Below are positions 7,140 through 15,326 of a DNA stretch of 64,000 bases, piece after piece. A program made the position numbers and the translations under genes. Within the stretch, counting starts at the first letter, position 1. Every line of letters starts with the position of its first letter. Source of the DNA: Bacillus sp. SJS (GTDB taxonomy: Bacteria > Bacillota > Bacilli > Bacillales > Bacillaceae); contig NZ_JAQV02000031.1 of the NCBI RefSeq assembly GCF_000732485.2, positions 62,001 through 126,000 of the forward strand. Direction: 5' to 3'. Under the pieces are notes generated by a model. It was not told the DNA's origin. It was given only the letters and a program-made list of their open reading frames with translations, and searched no databases.

Positions 7140-9092
7140 ATGAAGAAAACCCATCTTTTAACGTATGGTTTGGTCTCCGCTCTCATGTTAACTGCATTTT
7201 CAGGATTGAAGCCTGATGCAAAAGTAAAAGCAGACAATGTCAGCACTCCTTCAGCCGCGGAACAAATAGTGGATGGAATGTCTCTTGAAGAAAAGGTCGG
7301 CCAAATGCTGATGCCTGATTTCCGCAACTGGCAGAAGCAAGGGGAAAGCAAAATGACCGGCTTAACCGAAATGAATGATGAAGTCGGAAGCATCATTGAG
7401 AAGTACCATCTTGGCGGCGTCATTTTATTTGCCGAAAATGTAGTGGATACTGAGCAGACTGTAAGACTTGCAGATGGTCTTCAAAATGCGAGCAAGAACA
7501 TCCCGCTTTTTGTCACGATTGATCAGGAAGGCGGCATTGTGACAAGACTGCAATCGGGAACGAATCTGCCAGGAAACATGGCACTCGGTGCAGGGAGAAG
7601 CTTGAAAAATGCCTATAACACAGGATCAATCGTCGGGAAAGAGCTTCATTCCCTGGGCATCAACGTCAATTTTGCTCCATCTCTGGATGTAAATAACAAT
7701 CCCGGCAATCCAGTTATCGGGGTCCGCTCCTTTGGCAGCAGCCCTGAGCTGGTTGCTTCCCTCGGCCTTCAGACAATCAAAGGCCTGCAGGATCAGAACA
7801 TGGCTACGACGGCAAAGCATTTCCCGGGACACGGGGATACAGCAGTTGATTCCCATTACGGTCTTCCGATGGTCACACATGATAAAGAACGATTAAAAAA
7901 AGTAGAATTGTATCCTTTTCAAAAAGCGATCGATGCCAACGTCGATATGATTATGACTGCACATGTTCAATTCCCTGCGATTGACGATACCACATACAAA
8001 AGCAAAAAGGACGGCCAGCAGATTATGGTTCCTGCGACGCTATCACGCAAAGTGCTGACAGATCTGCTAAGAGATGAAATGGGCTTTAAGGGAGTCGTTG
8101 TTACTGACGCACTGAACATGAAAGCCATCGCTGATAACTTTGGCCAAAAAGAAGCGGTGATCCTCGCCATTAAATCCGGCGTGGACATTGCTCTGATGCC
8201 AGCACCGGTTACGTCTATTGCAACAGAAAAGAATTTGACAGAAGTATATAACGGGGTCATAGATGCAGTAAAATCCGGAGATATTCCAATGAGTGAGATC
8301 GATGATTCCGTTGAACGGATTCTCGATTTGAAAATGAAGCGCGGCATCTATCAGCCTGAAGGTTCGAACCAGGAAGATGCACTGGAAGCCAGGATTGCCA
8401 ATGCCAAAAAAATGGTCGGCAGCATGAAGCATTACCATTTAGAAAAGAAAATGGCATTAGACGCGGTGACACTTCTGAAAAATGAGGACGAAACCCTGCC
8501 GTTTAAACCGAAAAAGAACGAAAAAGTCCTGATCCTTGCACCATTTGAAGATCAGGCGGAAGCAATGAGAAGGTCCATTCACGAGCTGTACTCCAAACAG
8601 AGAATAAACAAAGTACAAGTGGAAAGTCTGATTTTTTCCGGAAAAGTATTTGATCAAGAAACCGCTGAGAAAATTGATGAAGCGGATTTTATCATTACCG
8701 GTTCCTATGTCGTGAAAAATGATCCGGCCGTTAATGATGGGGTTATTGATGATACGGTGAAAGATTCAAGCAAATGGGCAACTGTCTTTCCGAGAGCGGT
8801 TATGAACTACTCTCTGAAAAACAGCAAGAAATTTGTCCTGATGAGCCTGCGGAATCCTTACGATGCCGCTAATTTTGAAGAAGCGAAAGCGGTCTTGGCT
8901 GTTTACGGATTTAAAGGATATACAGACGGCCGGTTCCGTCAGCCGAACATTCCAGCGGGAATTGAAACGATCTTCGGATTATCTGAGCCTAAAGGAAAAC
9001 TGCCGGTCGGCATTCCTTCCGTTACGCATCCAAATGACATTCTTTATCCATACGGATACGGTTTAAAATTCAATGGAAAACCACTAAAATAA
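7140..9092 (+). CDS. nagZ: Secreted exo-beta-N-acetylglucosaminidase, glycoside hydrolase family 3
   Basis: A 650-residue GH3 enzyme with a signal peptide ([10 protein letters not shown]..., cleavage near KVKA). The catalytic barrel (about 40-400) carries KHFPGHGDT followed by VDSHYGLP, the Asp-His dyad typical of NagZ, and [10 protein letters not shown] with the nucleophile Asp. A second alpha/beta domain (about 440-640) gives the two-domain, roughly 640-residue form of Bacillus NagZ rather than the short Gram-negative form. It removes terminal GlcNAc from muropeptides outside the cell. The start has a perfect AAGGAGG 6 nt upstream. It is followed by namZ after 22 nt. Confidence 0.95.
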
Positions 9093-9114: not shown

Positions 9115-10350
9115 ATGAAAAAAATACTATTCGCCCTGATTGCCGGAATACTGGCAATCGGGATGGCTACATCGGTGGATGCTTCCCTTTTCGGACATAA
9201 AAAAGAGAAGAAGGTGCATACTGGCGCCGAGCTGCTGCTGAAGGAACAAAAAAGCCTGATTAAAGGGAAGCGTGTAGGCCTGATAACAAATCCTACCGGA
9301 GTAGACCGGAATCTTACAAGCGTTGTCGATCTGCTTGCACAGGATAAAGACATTAAGCTGACCGCTCTTTTTGGTCCTGAGCATGGGGTGCGGGGAGATG
9401 CGCAGGCTGGCCAGTATGTGGAGTATTACATCGATGAAAAGACAGGAGTGCCGGTATACAGCCTTTATGGGCAAACGAAAAAGCCAACACAAGAGATGCT
9501 CAAAAACGTGGATGTGCTGGTTTTTGATATTCAGGATGTCGGCTCCCGCTACTACACATACATTTACACGATGGCTTATGCGATGGAAGCGGCGAAAGAA
9601 AACAACATTCCGTTTATCGTTTTGGACCGGCCGAACCCGCTTGGCGGAATTCAAACAGACGGACCTGTTCTTGAACCGGCTTTCTCTTCATTTGTAGGAA
9701 AATACCCGATTCCTTTAAAACACGGGATGACGGTTGGAGAACTGGCAAAGCTCTTTAACAGTGAATTTACAATCGGTGCTGACCTGAAAGTAGTGAAAAT
9801 GAAGGGCTGGAAGAGAAGCATGGACTTTGATGATACCCATCTTCCATTCGTCATGCCGTCACCGAACATGCCGACACTTGAAACCGCCATCGTTTACCCG
9901 GCAACCGGCATGATTGAAGGGACCAATCTTTCAGAAGGGAGGGGAACTACGAAACCGTTTGAACTGGTTGGTGCGCCGTTTATTAACAGCGATAAACTGG
10001 CTGGAAAACTGAACAGCTTGAAGCTGCCGGGTGTATCGTTTAGAGCAGCATCTTTCAATCCTACGTTTTCGAAGCACACGGGCAAGCTTTCACACGGGGT
10101 ACAGCTCTACGTGACTGACCGGAAGAAGTTTAAAGCAGTCAAAACAGGCTTATCCATCGTGAAAACTGTAAAAGACATGTATCCGAATGAATTTCAGTTT
10201 TTAGCAGCCGATAATTTTAATCTTCTGCTTGGAAACAGCTGGGTGAAGGAAATGCTGTTAAACGGAGCTTCCGTTGAAGAGATCGAGAAGAAGTATGAAG
10301 AGGAAAGAACAAAATTCTTGGATATTCGGGAGAAATATATGCTGTATTAA
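9115..10350 (+). CDS. namZ: Exo-beta-N-acetylmuramidase NamZ (DUF1343)
   Basis: A 411-residue secreted DUF1343 protein (signal peptide, cleavage near VDA-S). Family segments include GLITNPTGVD, LFGPEHGVRGDAQAG, FDIQDVGSRYYTY, VLDRPNPLGG and EGTNLSEGRGTTKPFE. Characterised NamZ removes MurNAc from the non-reducing end of peptidoglycan, complementing NagZ and AmiE. Bases 9893-10056 are identical to 14866-15029 downstream, after which the two copies diverge (12 of about 101 residues differ to the end). The 3' third here may therefore have been replaced by recombination when the island inserted. The gene remains full length. Confidence 0.93.
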   Translation: MKKILFALIAGILAIGMATSVDASLFGHKKEKKVHTGAELLLKEQKSLIKGKRVGLITNPTGVDRNLTSVVDLLAQDKDIKLTALFGPEHGVRGDAQAGQYVEYYIDEKTGVPVYSLYGQTKKPTQEMLKNVDVLVFDIQDVGSRYYTYIYTMAYAMEAAKENNIPFIVLDRPNPLGGIQTDGPVLEPAFSSFVGKYPIPLKHGMTVGELAKLFNSEFTIGADLKVVKMKGWKRSMDFDDTHLPFVMPSPNMPTLETAIVYPATGMIEGTNLSEGRGTTKPFELVGAPFINSDKLAGKLNSLKLPGVSFRAASFNPTFSKHTGKLSHGVQLYVTDRKKFKAVKTGLSIVKTVKDMYPNEFQFLAADNFNLLLGNSWVKEMLLNGASVEEIEKKYEEERTKFLDIREKYMLY

Positions 10351-10353
10351 ATA

Positions 10354-10379
10354 GGAGGACTCCTTAACGGGGTCCTCTC
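10354..10379 (+). terminator. Degenerate namZ terminator
   Basis: Arms GGAGGACTCC and GGGGTCCTC form a hairpin just after the namZ stop, but the run of T is missing (CTCTAATG follows). The matching hairpin after the downstream namZ fragment keeps a T-tract. Confidence 0.5.
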
Positions 10380-10449
10380 TAATGAAGGATATTGTCATGA
10401 AAGCAGCGTTTATTCTTAACATGCAGATTTTATGGCGATTTTCTCTCTT

Positions 10450-10995
10450 TTATATTTGAAAATTTCTAAACTTTTTGTTTATCCAATTAAAGAAGGAATA
10501 TCCTATGATTAATCCAATGAAGTTTAGAACTACATCATCAATATCAATTCCTCTACTACCCAGTTTTAAGTAAAATAGAAAAAACTGGCCAACTTCTATT
10601 GCAATGGGGAGAAGCAAACTAATAAAAAATATTTTTTTCCAATTTATTTTTTTTGAATATAAAGGTAAAAGAAAGCCTAAAGGAAGAGTGAGTAAAATAT
10701 TACCAATTAAGTTTGTGATTACGACTTTTGTAGGTATAGATGAATTTAATGCAGACCTTATATATTCGATAATTGTTTTAAAAGGTATAAAATTAATCGA
10801 AAGATAATTAAATTGAGGAGCAGGAATGATCCAAACAAAATATAATAAATAAATAATATAAGTAATAAAAACGATACGAATACATTCTATCTTCCACTTA
10901 ATTCTGAACTTTTGAATAAGCATTAAACGCAATATTACATAGGTTAAAAGTAATGGAACAACAAAGATGTATAAAGGTTCTAATAATCTTATCAT
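10450..10995 (-). CDS. VanZ-like membrane protein
   Basis: A 181-residue, very AT-rich gene with about five hydrophobic segments. The VanZ signature is present: NLIGNILLTLPLGFLLPL, then EVGQFFL and GSRGIDIDDVVLNFIG. VanZ proteins confer low-level teicoplanin tolerance in enterococci, but most family members have no known function. The start at 10995 is chosen because TTGAGGT lies 8 nt upstream; an ATG 45 nt earlier lacks a ribosome site. It is the first gene of an AT-rich island between two copies of the namZ 3' end, and is convergent with namZ. Confidence 0.85.
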   Translation of the reverse strand: MIRLLEPLYIFVVPLLLTYVILRLMLIQKFRIKWKIECIRIVFITYIIYLLYFVWIIPAPQFNYLSINFIPFKTIIEYIRSALNSSIPTKVVITNLIGNILLTLPLGFLLPLYSKKINWKKIFFISLLLPIAIEVGQFFLFYLKLGSRGIDIDDVVLNFIGLIIGYSFFNWINKKFRNFQI

Positions 10996-11038
10996 AGATG
11001 ATACCTCAATATTATTTATTAACAAATTATTTATTAAC

Positions 11039-11075
11039 AAAGGAGCATGGTTCTTAAAAAATCATACTCCTTTTT
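11039..11075 (-). terminator. Terminator of the small secreted protein gene
   Basis: AAAGGAGCATG (from 11039) pairs with CATACTCCTTTTT (11063-11075). On the reverse strand it follows the stop of the gene at 11094. It could also act on the forward strand. Confidence 0.55.
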
Positions 11076-11093
11076 AGAAGGGTTAGCAATTAC

Positions 11094-11492
11094 TTATTGA
11101 TTTATAGTACCCGAGCCTTTTACTCTGCTTGCATATCCAGTATCGTCATTTTTATCAACATTAACTGTGTATGTACCACTGCTAACAGTGCCGAACGATT
11201 TAGTGTAGCTAGAACCATCTGCCAACATTTGAGCACTGTATTTAGTGAACAAGCTTTTATAAATTTGAACAGTATAACGGGACTTTTTAGATTGTACATC
11301 CCCTGCAGAATTATACGTATTTCCTTTTGCGGTTGTAGATGTAGATTTATTAGCTAATGAATGTTCTTTGCTGCCACTTACACTTGAAGAGATATCAAAG
11401 GAATATGTCCCGCTATAAGCACTAACGATGCTTGGAATAGCTATTCCTAAAGCCAAGGTACTTGCGGCAATAATTTTTTTACTTTTTTTCAA
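11094..11492 (-). CDS. Small secreted protein of unknown function
   Basis: 132 residues starting at TTG (AGGAGG 8 nt upstream). A clear signal peptide (KKSKK, then IIAASTLALGIAIPSIV, cleavage after SAY or nearby) leaves about 105 residues that are rich in Ser, Thr, Gly, Lys and Tyr, have no Cys or Trp, and look beta-sheet-like (alternating GTYSF, RYTVQIY, GTYTVNVD). The family is not recognised. It diverges from a two-gene ABC transporter, so a secreted bacteriocin-like or envelope-active protein handled by that transporter is possible, but there is no leader motif or Cys pattern to prove it. Base composition matches the island. Confidence 0.7.
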   Translation of the reverse strand: MKKSKKIIAASTLALGIAIPSIVSAYSGTYSFDISSSVSGSKEHSLANKSTSTTAKGNTYNSAGDVQSKKSRYTVQIYKSLFTKYSAQMLADGSSYTKSFGTVSSGTYTVNVDKNDDTGYASRVKGSGTINQ

Positions 11493-11518
11493 TATAATTT
11501 CCTCCTAATCCATATTTT

Positions 11519-11547
11519 GTATTACAATAATAAACAAGTATTTTCAA
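11519..11547 (-). promoter_or_regulatory. Promoter of the small secreted protein gene
   Basis: On the reverse strand, -35 TTGAAA (11547-11542) and -10 TAATAC (11524-11519) are separated by 17 nt. It leads into AGGAGG and the TTG start at 11492. Confidence 0.5.
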
Positions 11548-11594
11548 CATTTTTTTAAATGATGAATCATAATCTACTAATGGGGGTCTATTCT

Positions 11595-12278
11595 TTGACA
11601 ACTGGAATATTAAAAGCCACTGGAATTACAAAAAAATATAGTCAGGTCCATAAAAATGTACTAGAATCAACGAGTTTCTCTATTGAGGCAGGTTCTATCC
11701 ATGTAATTGAAGGTAAGAGCGGATCAGGTAAATCCACTTTTTTAAGCATAATTGGCGGTATGGAATATCCTTCCAGCGGAAAGGTCTATTATAAGAATGA
11801 ATCTTTATACGATTTATCTGACTCTAAGCAAGCTGTTATAAGAGGAAAAAAATTTGGTTTTATTTTTCAATCATTTCAATTAATTCCTGAGTTAACTGCA
11901 TGGGAAAATATAACACTTCCATTAATGTTAATGAAGCGTACGGATAGATTTGAAGAAAGAGTAAAGGAGCTAGCAGTTGAGTTGGGAATCAGCTCGCAAT
12001 TAGATAAGCGACCAAGCTTTTTATCTGGGGGGGAACAGCAAAGAGTGGCTATAGCAAGAGCATTAATTACTGAACCGGAGATAATATTTGCAGATGAACC
12101 TACGGGGAATTTGGACCAAACCACTACAAGAAGTATCATAAAATTATTTACTAAATTGAATAAGGAAAAAAAGTTATCTATAGTCATCGTTACTCATGAA
12201 AAAAATCTTTTTGAGGCTCCTCATCAATTATACACCATGAAAAATGGGGTTTTAGAGGGGATAGACAAAAATGTTTGA
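11595..12278 (+). CDS. ABC transporter ATP-binding protein (LolD/MacB type)
   Basis: A 227-residue ATPase with Walker A GKSGSGKSTF, Q-loop FIFQSFQLIP, signature LSGGEQQRVAIARAL, Walker B IIFADEPTGNLD and H-loop VTHEK. The GNLD after Walker B places it in the MacB/LolD/BceA group that pairs with FtsX-type permeases. The start TTG 11595 is preferred because ATGGGGG ends 7 nt before it; an ATG at 11559 has no ribosome site. The stop overlaps the permease start by 8 nt, so the pair is translationally coupled. Probably exports, extracts or removes a peptide or lipid rather than importing. Confidence 0.9.
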   Translation: MTTGILKATGITKKYSQVHKNVLESTSFSIEAGSIHVIEGKSGSGKSTFLSIIGGMEYPSSGKVYYKNESLYDLSDSKQAVIRGKKFGFIFQSFQLIPELTAWENITLPLMLMKRTDRFEERVKELAVELGISSQLDKRPSFLSGGEQQRVAIARALITEPEIIFADEPTGNLDQTTTRSIIKLFTKLNKEKKLSIVIVTHEKNLFEAPHQLYTMKNGVLEGIDKNV

Positions 12279-14718
12279 ATTAGCTTTTAAATTGTTACTC
12301 TCAAGGAAAAAGTGGCTCTTTTTAATGATAATTACCTTAGCTATTATAATTTCCTCGACTCTTTCTATATTCACAGCATCAGAAGCCATAAGAGATGGTC
12401 TCTTAAATAAAGGGTATTCCCAATATGGAAAACATAGTGGGGGACTAGTAGAGGTGAAAGCATCAAAAGAGGAGTTAAAAGGAAAAGTACAAATGATTGG
12501 ATCTTACAATTTAGTAGATTCTTATCCTTTGAATAATAAAGGGAAATTAGCGACTATAGGATGGATGGATAAAGATGCTATAAACCTCGCTAATTTAAGT
12601 CTCTTGGAAGGACGTTTCCCTAAAGGAAAAGGTGAAGTTGCTATTGAATCAGCTTATTTAAATCTAATTCATAGCAATTGGGCAATCGGAGACACAATAA
12701 CCTTACAGGGGAAAAATAAAAAATGGACAGTTAAGTTAGTTGGTGTTATTTCTAATTATTCCTCGAAATGGTATGTGCCTATTCATTTAGACCAAGGAGT
12801 AAATGCATTCCCTAATATTTTTATAAGCAATACTGAGTCGGAAATTAGTTTAAATCATAACTTTTTAATTAATATGGGGAATGATAAAAAGAAGTCAATG
12901 GCAAAAATGGAGGAACTTTTAGCAGAGTATAAAAATAATGGGTTTGTAAATAACAAGTTATTTCTGGACGGACTTAGGGATTATGATACTATTAGATATT
13001 TATCCATTTCATTCCAAGTAATACTTTTACTGATTTCTATTTTTTCTTTAGTAAGTATGTTTACCTACTACAATAAGCTGCAGTTACAAAAAATGGGGAT
13101 TTTAAGAGCGATTGGTTTTAAAGTTAATAACTTATTTCTTATTTATATATACGAAGTTACTATTCTGTTTTTTACGAGTCTAGCCATATCTTTTCCAATT
13201 CTACCCCTTTTTAAATCGCTTATTATAAAAATGACCTATACAGGCAGTTCGACAGCCCCATTTACTTCCTTTTTTACATATGCTTTTATCATTACTTTTC
13301 TTTTACTATTATTTTTATTAGTATTGTCAATTTTTTGTTATTCATTATTTCGTGCCAAACACAATTCTGTAAAAACTTTAATGTCAGGTATTACAAGATC
13401 GCCTGTTAATCATGCTTTTTTAAAAAGCAAAATAAGGTTATTCGCAATAAAACAACTGGCTAGACAATTGTTTTTGTATCCAAAAGAATTCATTTTCACT
13501 GTGTGCGTCCTAACTTTTTCAATTTTAACGCTTTTGTTTTCCATAGTTTTACAGAAAGAATCTGATGGAATTTGGGATGCAGAGGAATATTATTATTTAA
13601 GTGCTCAAGAAATTTATGGCTTCGACACTGTTGATAATCTTCCTGTTCTCTTAAAACAAGGTTTAACTTTTTCAGATGAAGATGCAAAAAAGATAGCCCA
13701 GATCTCTGGAGTTAAACATCTAGAAAAAAACCCCTTTATGGTGGATGTTGTCCCTTTAATTAAATCAAATCAGATGACTCCCTCAATTATTAATTGGATT
13801 CAAAAATACGGCGTTGACATAAAATATGGCGATAAACAGATAGTGCCGAATGTTAGATATGAGGTTGTAGACAAGCAAGCATTCGAAATGATTTATCCAA
13901 AAGGGGATTATGAAAAGTTCAAAGGTAAAGTTATGTTATTTATTCCTAATACTGATGGTAATCAAGATAATCTAAAAATGCTTAAAGGTGAAAAAATAAG
14001 TTTTGTTAAATTAAAGAAAGAAAAAGGCAGTATACAAGAAAATGAAAAACAATTTGTTGTGTATGATGTAATAAATCAACCCCTTGTTAAAAAAATTAGC
14101 GGATTAAAGAATATAGAATATGACAATTTTACAATATTAATTGATAAAGAAAGTTTTGAGGAATATAAGTTTTTTAATGGCTATTTCGAATTTAAAATCT
14201 ATTTAGACAAGAACTTAACTAATAATGACTTTAAGAAAATAGACAGTCATATTAATCAACTAATTGCGACTGTACCGGGTAGTTTTTTTCAAAATATACC
14301 AGAGTTTATTCAAAAGGATACCCAAATTACATCACTGCTTAGTTTTCTTGGAAAATTTGCTTTTATTATTGCGTCTGTTTTATCTATTTTAAGCATGACT
14401 ATAGTTGTTTTTAGTAAATATCAACTTCAAAAGAAAGAATGGGGAATTTATTTGTCAATGGGAATGTCTAAGAAAACAATTTATTACTTTTTAACGCTTG
14501 AAATGCTCATATATTTGTTATTGTCAATAATACTAAGCTTTGTTATTTATATATCAATATTATATTCAGCTAATTTGGTTTACCCCGTATCCTCATATTT
14601 TATTTATTTTTTCAATTCAATTATGTTTGTATTACTTCTGATAGTTATTGGAAGTTCCATTATGTACGGGAAAATTGTTAAGAAATCCATATCTTCAATG
14701 TTAAGAGAGGTGGAATAG
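12271..14718 (+). CDS. Large FtsX-like ABC permease
   Basis: 815 residues with the double-FtsX plan. There is an N-terminal TM helix (about 15-35), an extracellular domain, three TM helices near 245-370 (QVILLLISIFSLVSMFTYY and following), a second membrane helix near 410-430, a second extracellular domain of about 230 residues, and a closing three-helix FtsX block (about 690-805). LGILRAIG-like text occurs as KMGILRAIGFK and again as WGIYLSMGMSK. It forms a transporter with the preceding ATPase. The size resembles permeases of antimicrobial peptide detoxification, adhesin or bacteriocin export systems. The substrate is unknown. The gene is strongly AT-rich. Confidence 0.86.
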   Translation: MFELAFKLLLSRKKWLFLMIITLAIIISSTLSIFTASEAIRDGLLNKGYSQYGKHSGGLVEVKASKEELKGKVQMIGSYNLVDSYPLNNKGKLATIGWMDKDAINLANLSLLEGRFPKGKGEVAIESAYLNLIHSNWAIGDTITLQGKNKKWTVKLVGVISNYSSKWYVPIHLDQGVNAFPNIFISNTESEISLNHNFLINMGNDKKKSMAKMEELLAEYKNNGFVNNKLFLDGLRDYDTIRYLSISFQVILLLISIFSLVSMFTYYNKLQLQKMGILRAIGFKVNNLFLIYIYEVTILFFTSLAISFPILPLFKSLIIKMTYTGSSTAPFTSFFTYAFIITFLLLLFLLVLSIFCYSLFRAKHNSVKTLMSGITRSPVNHAFLKSKIRLFAIKQLARQLFLYPKEFIFTVCVLTFSILTLLFSIVLQKESDGIWDAEEYYYLSAQEIYGFDTVDNLPVLLKQGLTFSDEDAKKIAQISGVKHLEKNPFMVDVVPLIKSNQMTPSIINWIQKYGVDIKYGDKQIVPNVRYEVVDKQAFEMIYPKGDYEKFKGKVMLFIPNTDGNQDNLKMLKGEKISFVKLKKEKGSIQENEKQFVVYDVINQPLVKKISGLKNIEYDNFTILIDKESFEEYKFFNGYFEFKIYLDKNLTNNDFKKIDSHINQLIATVPGSFFQNIPEFIQKDTQITSLLSFLGKFAFIIASVLSILSMTIVVFSKYQLQKKEWGIYLSMGMSKKTIYYFLTLEMLIYLLLSIILSFVIYISILYSANLVYPVSSYFIYFFNSIMFVLLLIVIGSSIMYGKIVKKSISSMLREVE

Positions 14719-14865
14719 GATCATAATAAGAATGTAAGCTTGCTTATTAATACCAGCTGCCTTAATATGCTGCTCTCTTATTCCACAAACGGGTGTATAT
14801 GGCAGGTGCATTACGCGTTAGCGTTCATATTGAATTTTTTAATAATTTTATAGTCTCTTTATCAT
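14719..14865 (+). other. Right boundary segment of the AT-rich island
   Basis: No gene is visible. The segment shifts from AT-rich island sequence to a patch around 14780-14830 with higher GC, which includes ACGCGTTAGCG. It then ends abruptly at the first base identical to namZ (14866). There is no transposase, integrase or obvious terminal repeat. Confidence 0.4.
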
Positions 14866-15323
14866 TTTACCCGGCAACCGGCATGATTGAAGGGACCAAT
14901 CTTTCAGAAGGGAGGGGAACTACGAAACCGTTTGAACTGGTTGGTGCGCCGTTTATTAACAGCGATAAACTGGCTGGAAAACTGAACAGCTTGAAGCTGC
15001 CGGGTGTATCGTTTAGAGCAGCATCTTTCACTCCGACATTTTCAAAACACAGCGGCAAGCTTTCACATGGGGTACAGCTCTACGTAACCGACCGGAAGAA
15101 GTTTAAAGCAGTCAAAACAGGCTTATCCATCGTGAAAACTGTAAAAGACATGTACCCGGAAGATTTTCAGTTTTTCGCAGCGGACAATTTTAACCTTTTG
15201 CTCGGAAACAGATGGGTGAAGGATATGCTGGTAGAGGGAGCATCCGTTGAAGAGATTGAAAAGAAATATGAAGAAGAAAGAACGAGATTTATGGATATTC
15301 GGGAGAAGTATTTGCTGTATTAA
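14866..15323 (+). pseudogene. Duplicate 3' fragment of namZ
   Basis: This is the C-terminal 152 codons of namZ with no start region. The first 164 bases (14866-15029) are identical to 9893-10056 at a constant offset of 4973. From there to the stop the two diverge at many third positions and at 12 residues, without any insertion or deletion. No ribosome site or promoter precedes it, so it is unlikely to be translated. It is either the displaced original 3' end of namZ or a piece of a donor allele. Confidence 0.9.
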
Positions 15324-15326
15324 ACT

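Follow-up and report, generated by a model that had tools for sequence, protein, structure and literature searches.

A 64,000-nucleotide stretch of the Bacillus sp. SJS genome (contig NZ_JAQV02000031.1, positions 62,001 to 126,000; hereafter the window) carries an acquired island in which the gene for a 132-amino-acid (aa) secreted protein of no known family, here called SP, lies beside genes for a VanZ-type membrane protein, an ATP-binding cassette (ABC) ATPase and an FtsX-type permease. These four genes belong together as a recurring, real and mobile gene set, and our preferred reading, which we hold tentatively (probability about 45%), is that they form a horizontally mobile module for producing, and withstanding, a bacteriocin-like protein aimed at the cell envelope. 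We place this ahead of a resistance module by a modest margin. In its favour, SP co-occurs with the permease, can be lost where the ABC pair is kept, spreads sporadically, is mostly positively charged, has its own hairpin in the window and in one species occurs as paralogues sharing one ABC pair; killing, a target and protective roles for the ABC pair and VanZ are inferred. A preliminary description of the window had already drawn attention to SP, VanZ, a MacB-type ATPase and an 815-aa FtsX permease within an island, and all four genes are present at the coordinates below, three of them with Pfam matches and SP with none.

11094 to 11492, minus strand: SP, 132-aa secreted protein of no known family, the centre of the finding
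11039 to 11073, minus strand: hairpin just 3′ of SP, a probable terminator between SP and VanZ (–14.7 kcal/mol, z –3.8)
10450 to 10995, minus strand: VanZ-1 type membrane protein, 181 aa (open reading frame (ORF) reaches 11040; PF04892, E = 1.7e-21)
11595 to 12278, plus strand: ABC ATPase, 227 aa from TTG 11595 (ORF from ATG 11559; PF00005, ABC_tran, E = 2.7e-33)
12271 to 14718, plus strand: FtsX-type permease, 815 aa, with two FtsX stretches (PF02687, E = 8.8e-15)
10375 to 14865, no strand: acquired island, delimited by the homology break with genome G076 and a GC content of 0.30 vs 0.44

Support for a unit comes from its recurrence in other genomes, all counts of which include the window genome. 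Within the family, 5 of the 80 genomes carry SP, and a permease profile (A3, whose source permeases adjoin SP or, in the case of G129, a remnant of it) picks out the same 5 of 80, an agreement with a chance probability of 4e-8 on the assumption of independent genomes, which holds only in part. Above the family level at most 10 candidates per genome were scored for SP and 2 for the permease, and the counts are lower bounds: SP occurs in at least 5 of 397 genomes of the order sample (one a remnant) and in at least 1 of 398 of the phylum sample (the window genome only, among the candidates scored), and the permease in at least 6 of 397 of the order sample and at least 7 of 398 of the class sample, 5 of which were kept. 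The two that were dropped as another family, G991 and G920, gave partial matches of 93 and 76 bits, against 453 or more for the best match of the others, and their ABC genes adjoin response-regulator-like and kinase-like ORFs (by eye), so that they look like ordinary sensing modules. A permease-anchored scan of a contig collection with one peptide pattern returned 10 loci, 7 of them already known, and an SP homologue, truncated in one case, stands beside the ATPase in 10/10. Among plasmid records a single one, a Paenibacillus megaplasmid, carries SP; phages gave no match, and neither did viral contigs, where the single-protein query reaches close relatives only.

Together these searches yield 16 genomes with the permease, namely the window genome, G129, G877, G1174, G976 and 11 named carriers (Bacillus paralicheniformis, B. 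glycinifermentans, B. changyiensis, Bacillus sp. WMMC1349, Bacillus sp. V3-13, Aeribacillus composti, Heyndrickxia ginsengihumi, H. coagulans, Ornithinibacillus bavariensis, Pallidibacillus pasinlerensis and Paenibacillus cellulosilyticus). SP is intact in 12 of them, is a remnant in 2 (H. coagulans, where it is truncated, and G129) and was not found at the locus in G1174 and G976, for which only 13-kb stretches were searched. VanZ is present in 12 of the 16, being cut by the contig end in Pallidibacillus and a longer VanZ protein in G1174 and G976; it is a remnant in Ornithinibacillus and was not found in H. coagulans, G129 and G877, the contig of the last ending 555 bp after the permease. 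The six genomes first reached via the permease (Ornithinibacillus, V3-13, H. coagulans, G877, G1174 and G976) contain three intact SP genes and one truncated one, with none found at the locus in two. Every SP found has an ABC pair of this family adjacent or one gene away and SP was never found without it, while the ABC pair persists beside an SP remnant in 2/16 genomes (G129 and H. coagulans). The distribution is sporadic and strain-variable, and the recurring neighbourhood of SP, this ABC pair and usually VanZ, on which the preliminary description had made its proposal depend, does exist.

SP starts with a TTG codon preceded by AGGAGG, and its N-terminus resembles a signal peptide with a V-S-A site, by inspection. 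The same hydrophobic N-terminus and small-x-Ala site, followed by a mature part of 103–113 aa, can be recognised by inspection in 13/13 SP proteins. The mature part of the window protein (∼107 aa) contains neither Cys nor Trp, as the preliminary description had remarked; Cys is absent from all 13 proteins, the net charge is positive in 12/13, and the C-terminal residue is an invariant Gln. A structure model, a check the preliminary description had suggested, came out all-beta. The claim that the protein lacks a recognised family also held, as the window SP matches nothing in Pfam at E up to 1, falls in no NCBIfam family and has no sequence relative in the PDB, and no credible match to these three libraries was obtained for the SP proteins as a group. 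Matches to TIGR01200 (window SP, E = 0.031), Big_5 (0.012, 2/13), DUF4179 (0.0065, 1/13) and TorE (0.00098, 1/13) were set aside as chance, none being shared across members. The SP family is undescribed in the libraries and literature searched, and no description of the module was found in that literature, outside which most subscription papers fall. The signal-peptide-like N-terminus points to Sec export, which makes it unlikely that the ABC pair is needed for SP to cross the membrane. The hairpin 3′ of SP is absent from the listing of a simple terminator scan.

The ATPase contains Walker A, LSGGEQQR and Walker B motifs, its proposed start at TTG 11595 within the ORF at 11559–12278 resting on homologues, and its gene overlaps that of the permease by 8 bp on the same (plus) strand. 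By hydropathy only, the permease crosses the membrane with ∼8 segments and has two large domains on the extracytoplasmic side. PF02687 is its sole Pfam match at E up to 1, no NCBIfam model among 3 hits reached its cut-off, and it weakly matches the structures of MacB, YbbP and YtrF (E 0.001–0.008); PADLOC matches are limited to the ATPase. The FtsX domain, the extracytoplasmic domains and the MacB-like ATPase assign the pair by sequence to the MacB/type VII ABC superfamily, whose members (MacB, LolCDE, YtrF and YbbP) share the ATPase motifs, FtsX domains and extracytoplasmic domains with the module but differ from its permease, a duplicated single chain of 815 aa. VanZ, likewise assigned to VanZ-1, probably starts at ATG 10995 within the ORF at 10450–11040, in agreement with its homologues, and has DxDDxxxN at position 151 and ExxQ at 134. 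It thereby shares PF04892 and both motifs with VanZ-1 proteins and differs from them in being linked to SP and an ABC pair and in having no van cluster. DxDDxxxN and ExxQ are the VanZ-1 motifs in the portion of PMC12419801 consulted, which predicts that VanZ acts on undecaprenyl-linked head groups.

In the bacteriocin-like reading SP would leave the cell via Sec, be trimmed after its AxA-type site and fold, in keeping with the predicted all-beta model, into a beta-sandwich of ∼107 residues, free of Cys and mostly cationic, whose target would be a surface component or cell-wall precursor of related bacteria. MacB-type transporters work at the outer face of the membrane, and the ATPase with its double-domain FtsX permease could, by mechanotransmission of the MacB/LolCDE type, strip SP from its target on the producer or hold it away. 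VanZ may alter or withdraw undecaprenyl-linked precursors, leaving less target exposed. A transporter that extracts at the outer face and a VanZ predicted to act on undecaprenyl-linked head groups, VanZ having been shown to lower lipoglycopeptide binding (PMC7146870), would fit self-protection from a secreted envelope-binding protein. The relevant sections of PMC5985334 name LolCDE as extracting lipoproteins and YknXYZ as protecting from the SDP toxin.

Among the closest known systems are lactococcin 972 (Lcn972) and streptococcin B loci (PF09683 with a DUF1430-type permease and an ATPase), in which a small Sec-type secreted protein likewise lies next to an ABC pair whose permease is large and multi-pass and in which the structural gene can be lost while the ABC pair is kept. 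Judged by sequence, the module is not a lactococcin 972 locus, because PF09683 is not among the matches of the 13 SP proteins at E up to 1, the SP profile gives a probability of 1.6% against two lactococcin 972 proteins, and the permease is of the FtsX and not the DUF1430 type, with no bacteriocin-associated permease model among its 3 NCBIfam hits; the preliminary description had reached the same view of SP. Against three lactococcin-type permeases only a 72-column membrane stretch of the module permease aligns (probability 88%), and of two such permeases scanned one scored above the DUF1430 cut-off and the other below it. The module further differs in its extra VanZ and in the longer mature part of SP, Lcn972 having 66 aa. 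Of the three lactococcin 972 matches fetched, two come with a small secreted-type protein, a 728- or 763-aa permease and an ATPase, and the third (L067, 5093–8210) has an internal stop next to intact permease and ATPase ORFs. The decay of SP while the ABC pair stays, together with the lack of any SP found without it, matches the pattern of streptococcin B, for which the part of PMC11796350 consulted reports that 157 of 571 pneumococci retain scbBC alone; by the same text, what the B and C proteins do has been verified in no lactococcin 972 locus. Our best reading, by analogy, is that the module may work like a lactococcin 972 system without being a member by sequence.

The arrangement of the genes varies between loci. 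SP is divergent from the ABC pair in 6 of the 12 genomes with an intact SP (window, V3-13, Ornithinibacillus, Pallidibacillus, Aeribacillus and H. ginsengihumi) and co-directional in the other 6, and in Paenibacillus VanZ sits between SP and the ATPase. In B. changyiensis (L010, 5118–6862) two tandem SP paralogues, 64% identical, precede one ABC pair, and WMMC1349 has one SP, 94% identical to the distal of these paralogues, the ATPases of the two strains being 96% identical. Between B. paralicheniformis and B. glycinifermentans synonymous divergence is 0.25–0.33 in all four genes vs 1.18 and 1.28 in the flanking genes for a CitT-like transporter and a helicase, suggesting that the four genes, VanZ included, were exchanged jointly and more recently than their flanks; protein identities are similar for module and flanks. 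Averaged over pairs from 12 genomes, identity is 38% for SP, 31% for the permease, 36% for VanZ (from fewer pairs) and 54% for the ATPase, and the identities of SP and permease covary across genome pairs (Spearman 0.66; the pairs are not independent).

Several of these observations weigh against a bacteriocin. SP is not the fastest-evolving part of the module, contrary to the greater variation expected of an arms-race toxin; the SP of Paenibacillus is acidic (net charge –4), and the ABC pair and VanZ are kept in G1174 and G976, the two genomes in which SP was not found at the locus. Of the 10 module VanZ proteins inspected, 7 have DxDDxxxN exactly and 3 do not. The low divergence of the module is limited to the first species pair; in the second and only other one compared, B. 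changyiensis and WMMC1349, module synonymous divergence is 0.09–0.25 vs 0.22 for a flanking helicase, with no signal of joint exchange. Finally, the YsaDCB/YsaA resistance module has the same gene composition. This last point leads to a close rival that the preliminary description had itself named as an antibiotic-tolerance unit, and that we consider a serious if somewhat less probable alternative: by analogy, the FtsX-type ABC pair could free cell-wall precursors from foreign antimicrobial peptides, VanZ could cut peptide binding and SP could be a secreted modulator of the transporter. In the sections of PMC7438565 consulted, Lactococcus YsaD is a 119-aa secreted protein of the YxeA family, YsaCB is a BceAB-type transporter and YsaA is a VanZ protein; YsaD/YxeA is proposed as a modulator of YsaCB/YxdLM, and ysaDCB is a tested peptide-resistance factor that, in trans, raised the half-maximal inhibitory concentrations (IC50) of bacitracin and Lcn972 5-fold, ysaD being apparently dispensable for resistance and modulating signalling. 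VanZ, in turn, lowers teicoplanin binding according to the part of PMC7146870 consulted, which in 2020 gave the mechanism of VanZ resistance as unknown. The retention of the ABC pair without an intact SP in 4/16 genomes and the covariation of SP with the permease would also suit peptide detoxification. The module resembles L. lactis YsaDCB/YsaA/TCS-G and B. subtilis YxdLM-YxeA in combining a small secreted protein with a MacB/BceAB-kind ABC pair and, as in Lactococcus, a VanZ. By three features it is nevertheless not of the BceAB–two-component system type, since TIGR01655 (YxeA) matches 0/13 SP proteins at E up to 1, the permease has ∼8 segments and two large outer loops by hydropathy where BceB has 10 membrane helices and one large loop, and no two-component system was seen next to the genes, whether in the window (by eye) or in a Pfam scan of 10 flanking proteins from 8 loci, other flanks having been viewed by eye only. 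The gene order differs as well, ysaD being first in its ABC operon and the window SP being divergent from the ABC pair with its own terminator-like hairpin. A regulator-like ORF lies ∼4.5 kb beyond the Ornithinibacillus permease (L024).

Less probable again, and in our judgement unlikely, is that SP is a cargo or adaptor which the ABC pair extracts or positions on the envelope for housekeeping or adhesion, with VanZ tuning exopolysaccharide or peptidoglycan precursors. That the four genes are neighbours by chance is barely credible, for although their order and strand differ between loci, the identical sets of 5/80 genomes and the same gene set in several genera contradict it. The consulted excerpts of PMC12328743 (TMcins) and PMC9067509 contain nothing closer to the module. 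Returning to the bacteriocin-like reading, a bolder form of it, which we regard as plausible but less likely than not, is that SP founds a new class of folded, Cys-free, Sec-secreted Bacillales bacteriocins, protected by a dedicated double-domain FtsX ABC pair and a VanZ acting on lipid-linked cell-wall precursors. If so, bacteriocin immunity would be a natural role of the VanZ enzyme. VanZ proteins occur widely, and by linking one of them to one small folded secreted protein and one ABC pair the mobile module provides a defined natural setting for studying the function of VanZ. Should SP prove antibacterial it would be a new bacteriocin scaffold, and should it not, a new secreted partner of resistance-type ABC transporters.

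The island that carries the module (window 10375–14865, 4,491 bp) is acquired and strain-variable, with a GC content of 0.30 vs 0.44 in the rest of the window. Alignment of the window to G076, the single genome of the same species searched, ends at 10374 and restarts at 14866; the island is missing from that genome, where namZ directly adjoins hutP. We take the neighbouring genes to be namZ (ybbC) and hutP. Two further features belong to the site.

9115 to 10350, plus strand: intact left-hand neighbour, presumably namZ (ybbC)
14866 to 15325, plus strand: repeat of the 3′-terminal 460 bp of namZ bordering the island on the right, an insertion scar

The first ∼165 bp of the second, partial copy are identical to the intact one and the remainder has diverged, which suggests homologous recombination with the incoming DNA.

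Some further loci add detail to the neighbourhood. Upstream of an intact ABC pair, L020 holds an SP remnant with stops and frame changes (8651–9060). In G877 (L055, 3517–4806) SP and the ATPase are separated by a 429-aa membrane protein that has no Pfam match and whose N-terminus may resemble HAAS domains. In one genus (L054, 2530–8995; L056, 3100–7615) SP was not found at the locus of the ABC pair, and next after the pair comes a VanZ protein of 460 aa, or 458 aa in L056, that is much extended at its C-terminus; in L056 two ORFs make up the permease, and a gene resembling those for extracytoplasmic function (ECF) sigma factors lies upstream in L054 (by eye). In two congeners the gap between namZ and hutP holds other ORFs (L061, 2801–4480; L060, 4342–4785), and the site may thus be an insertion hot spot.

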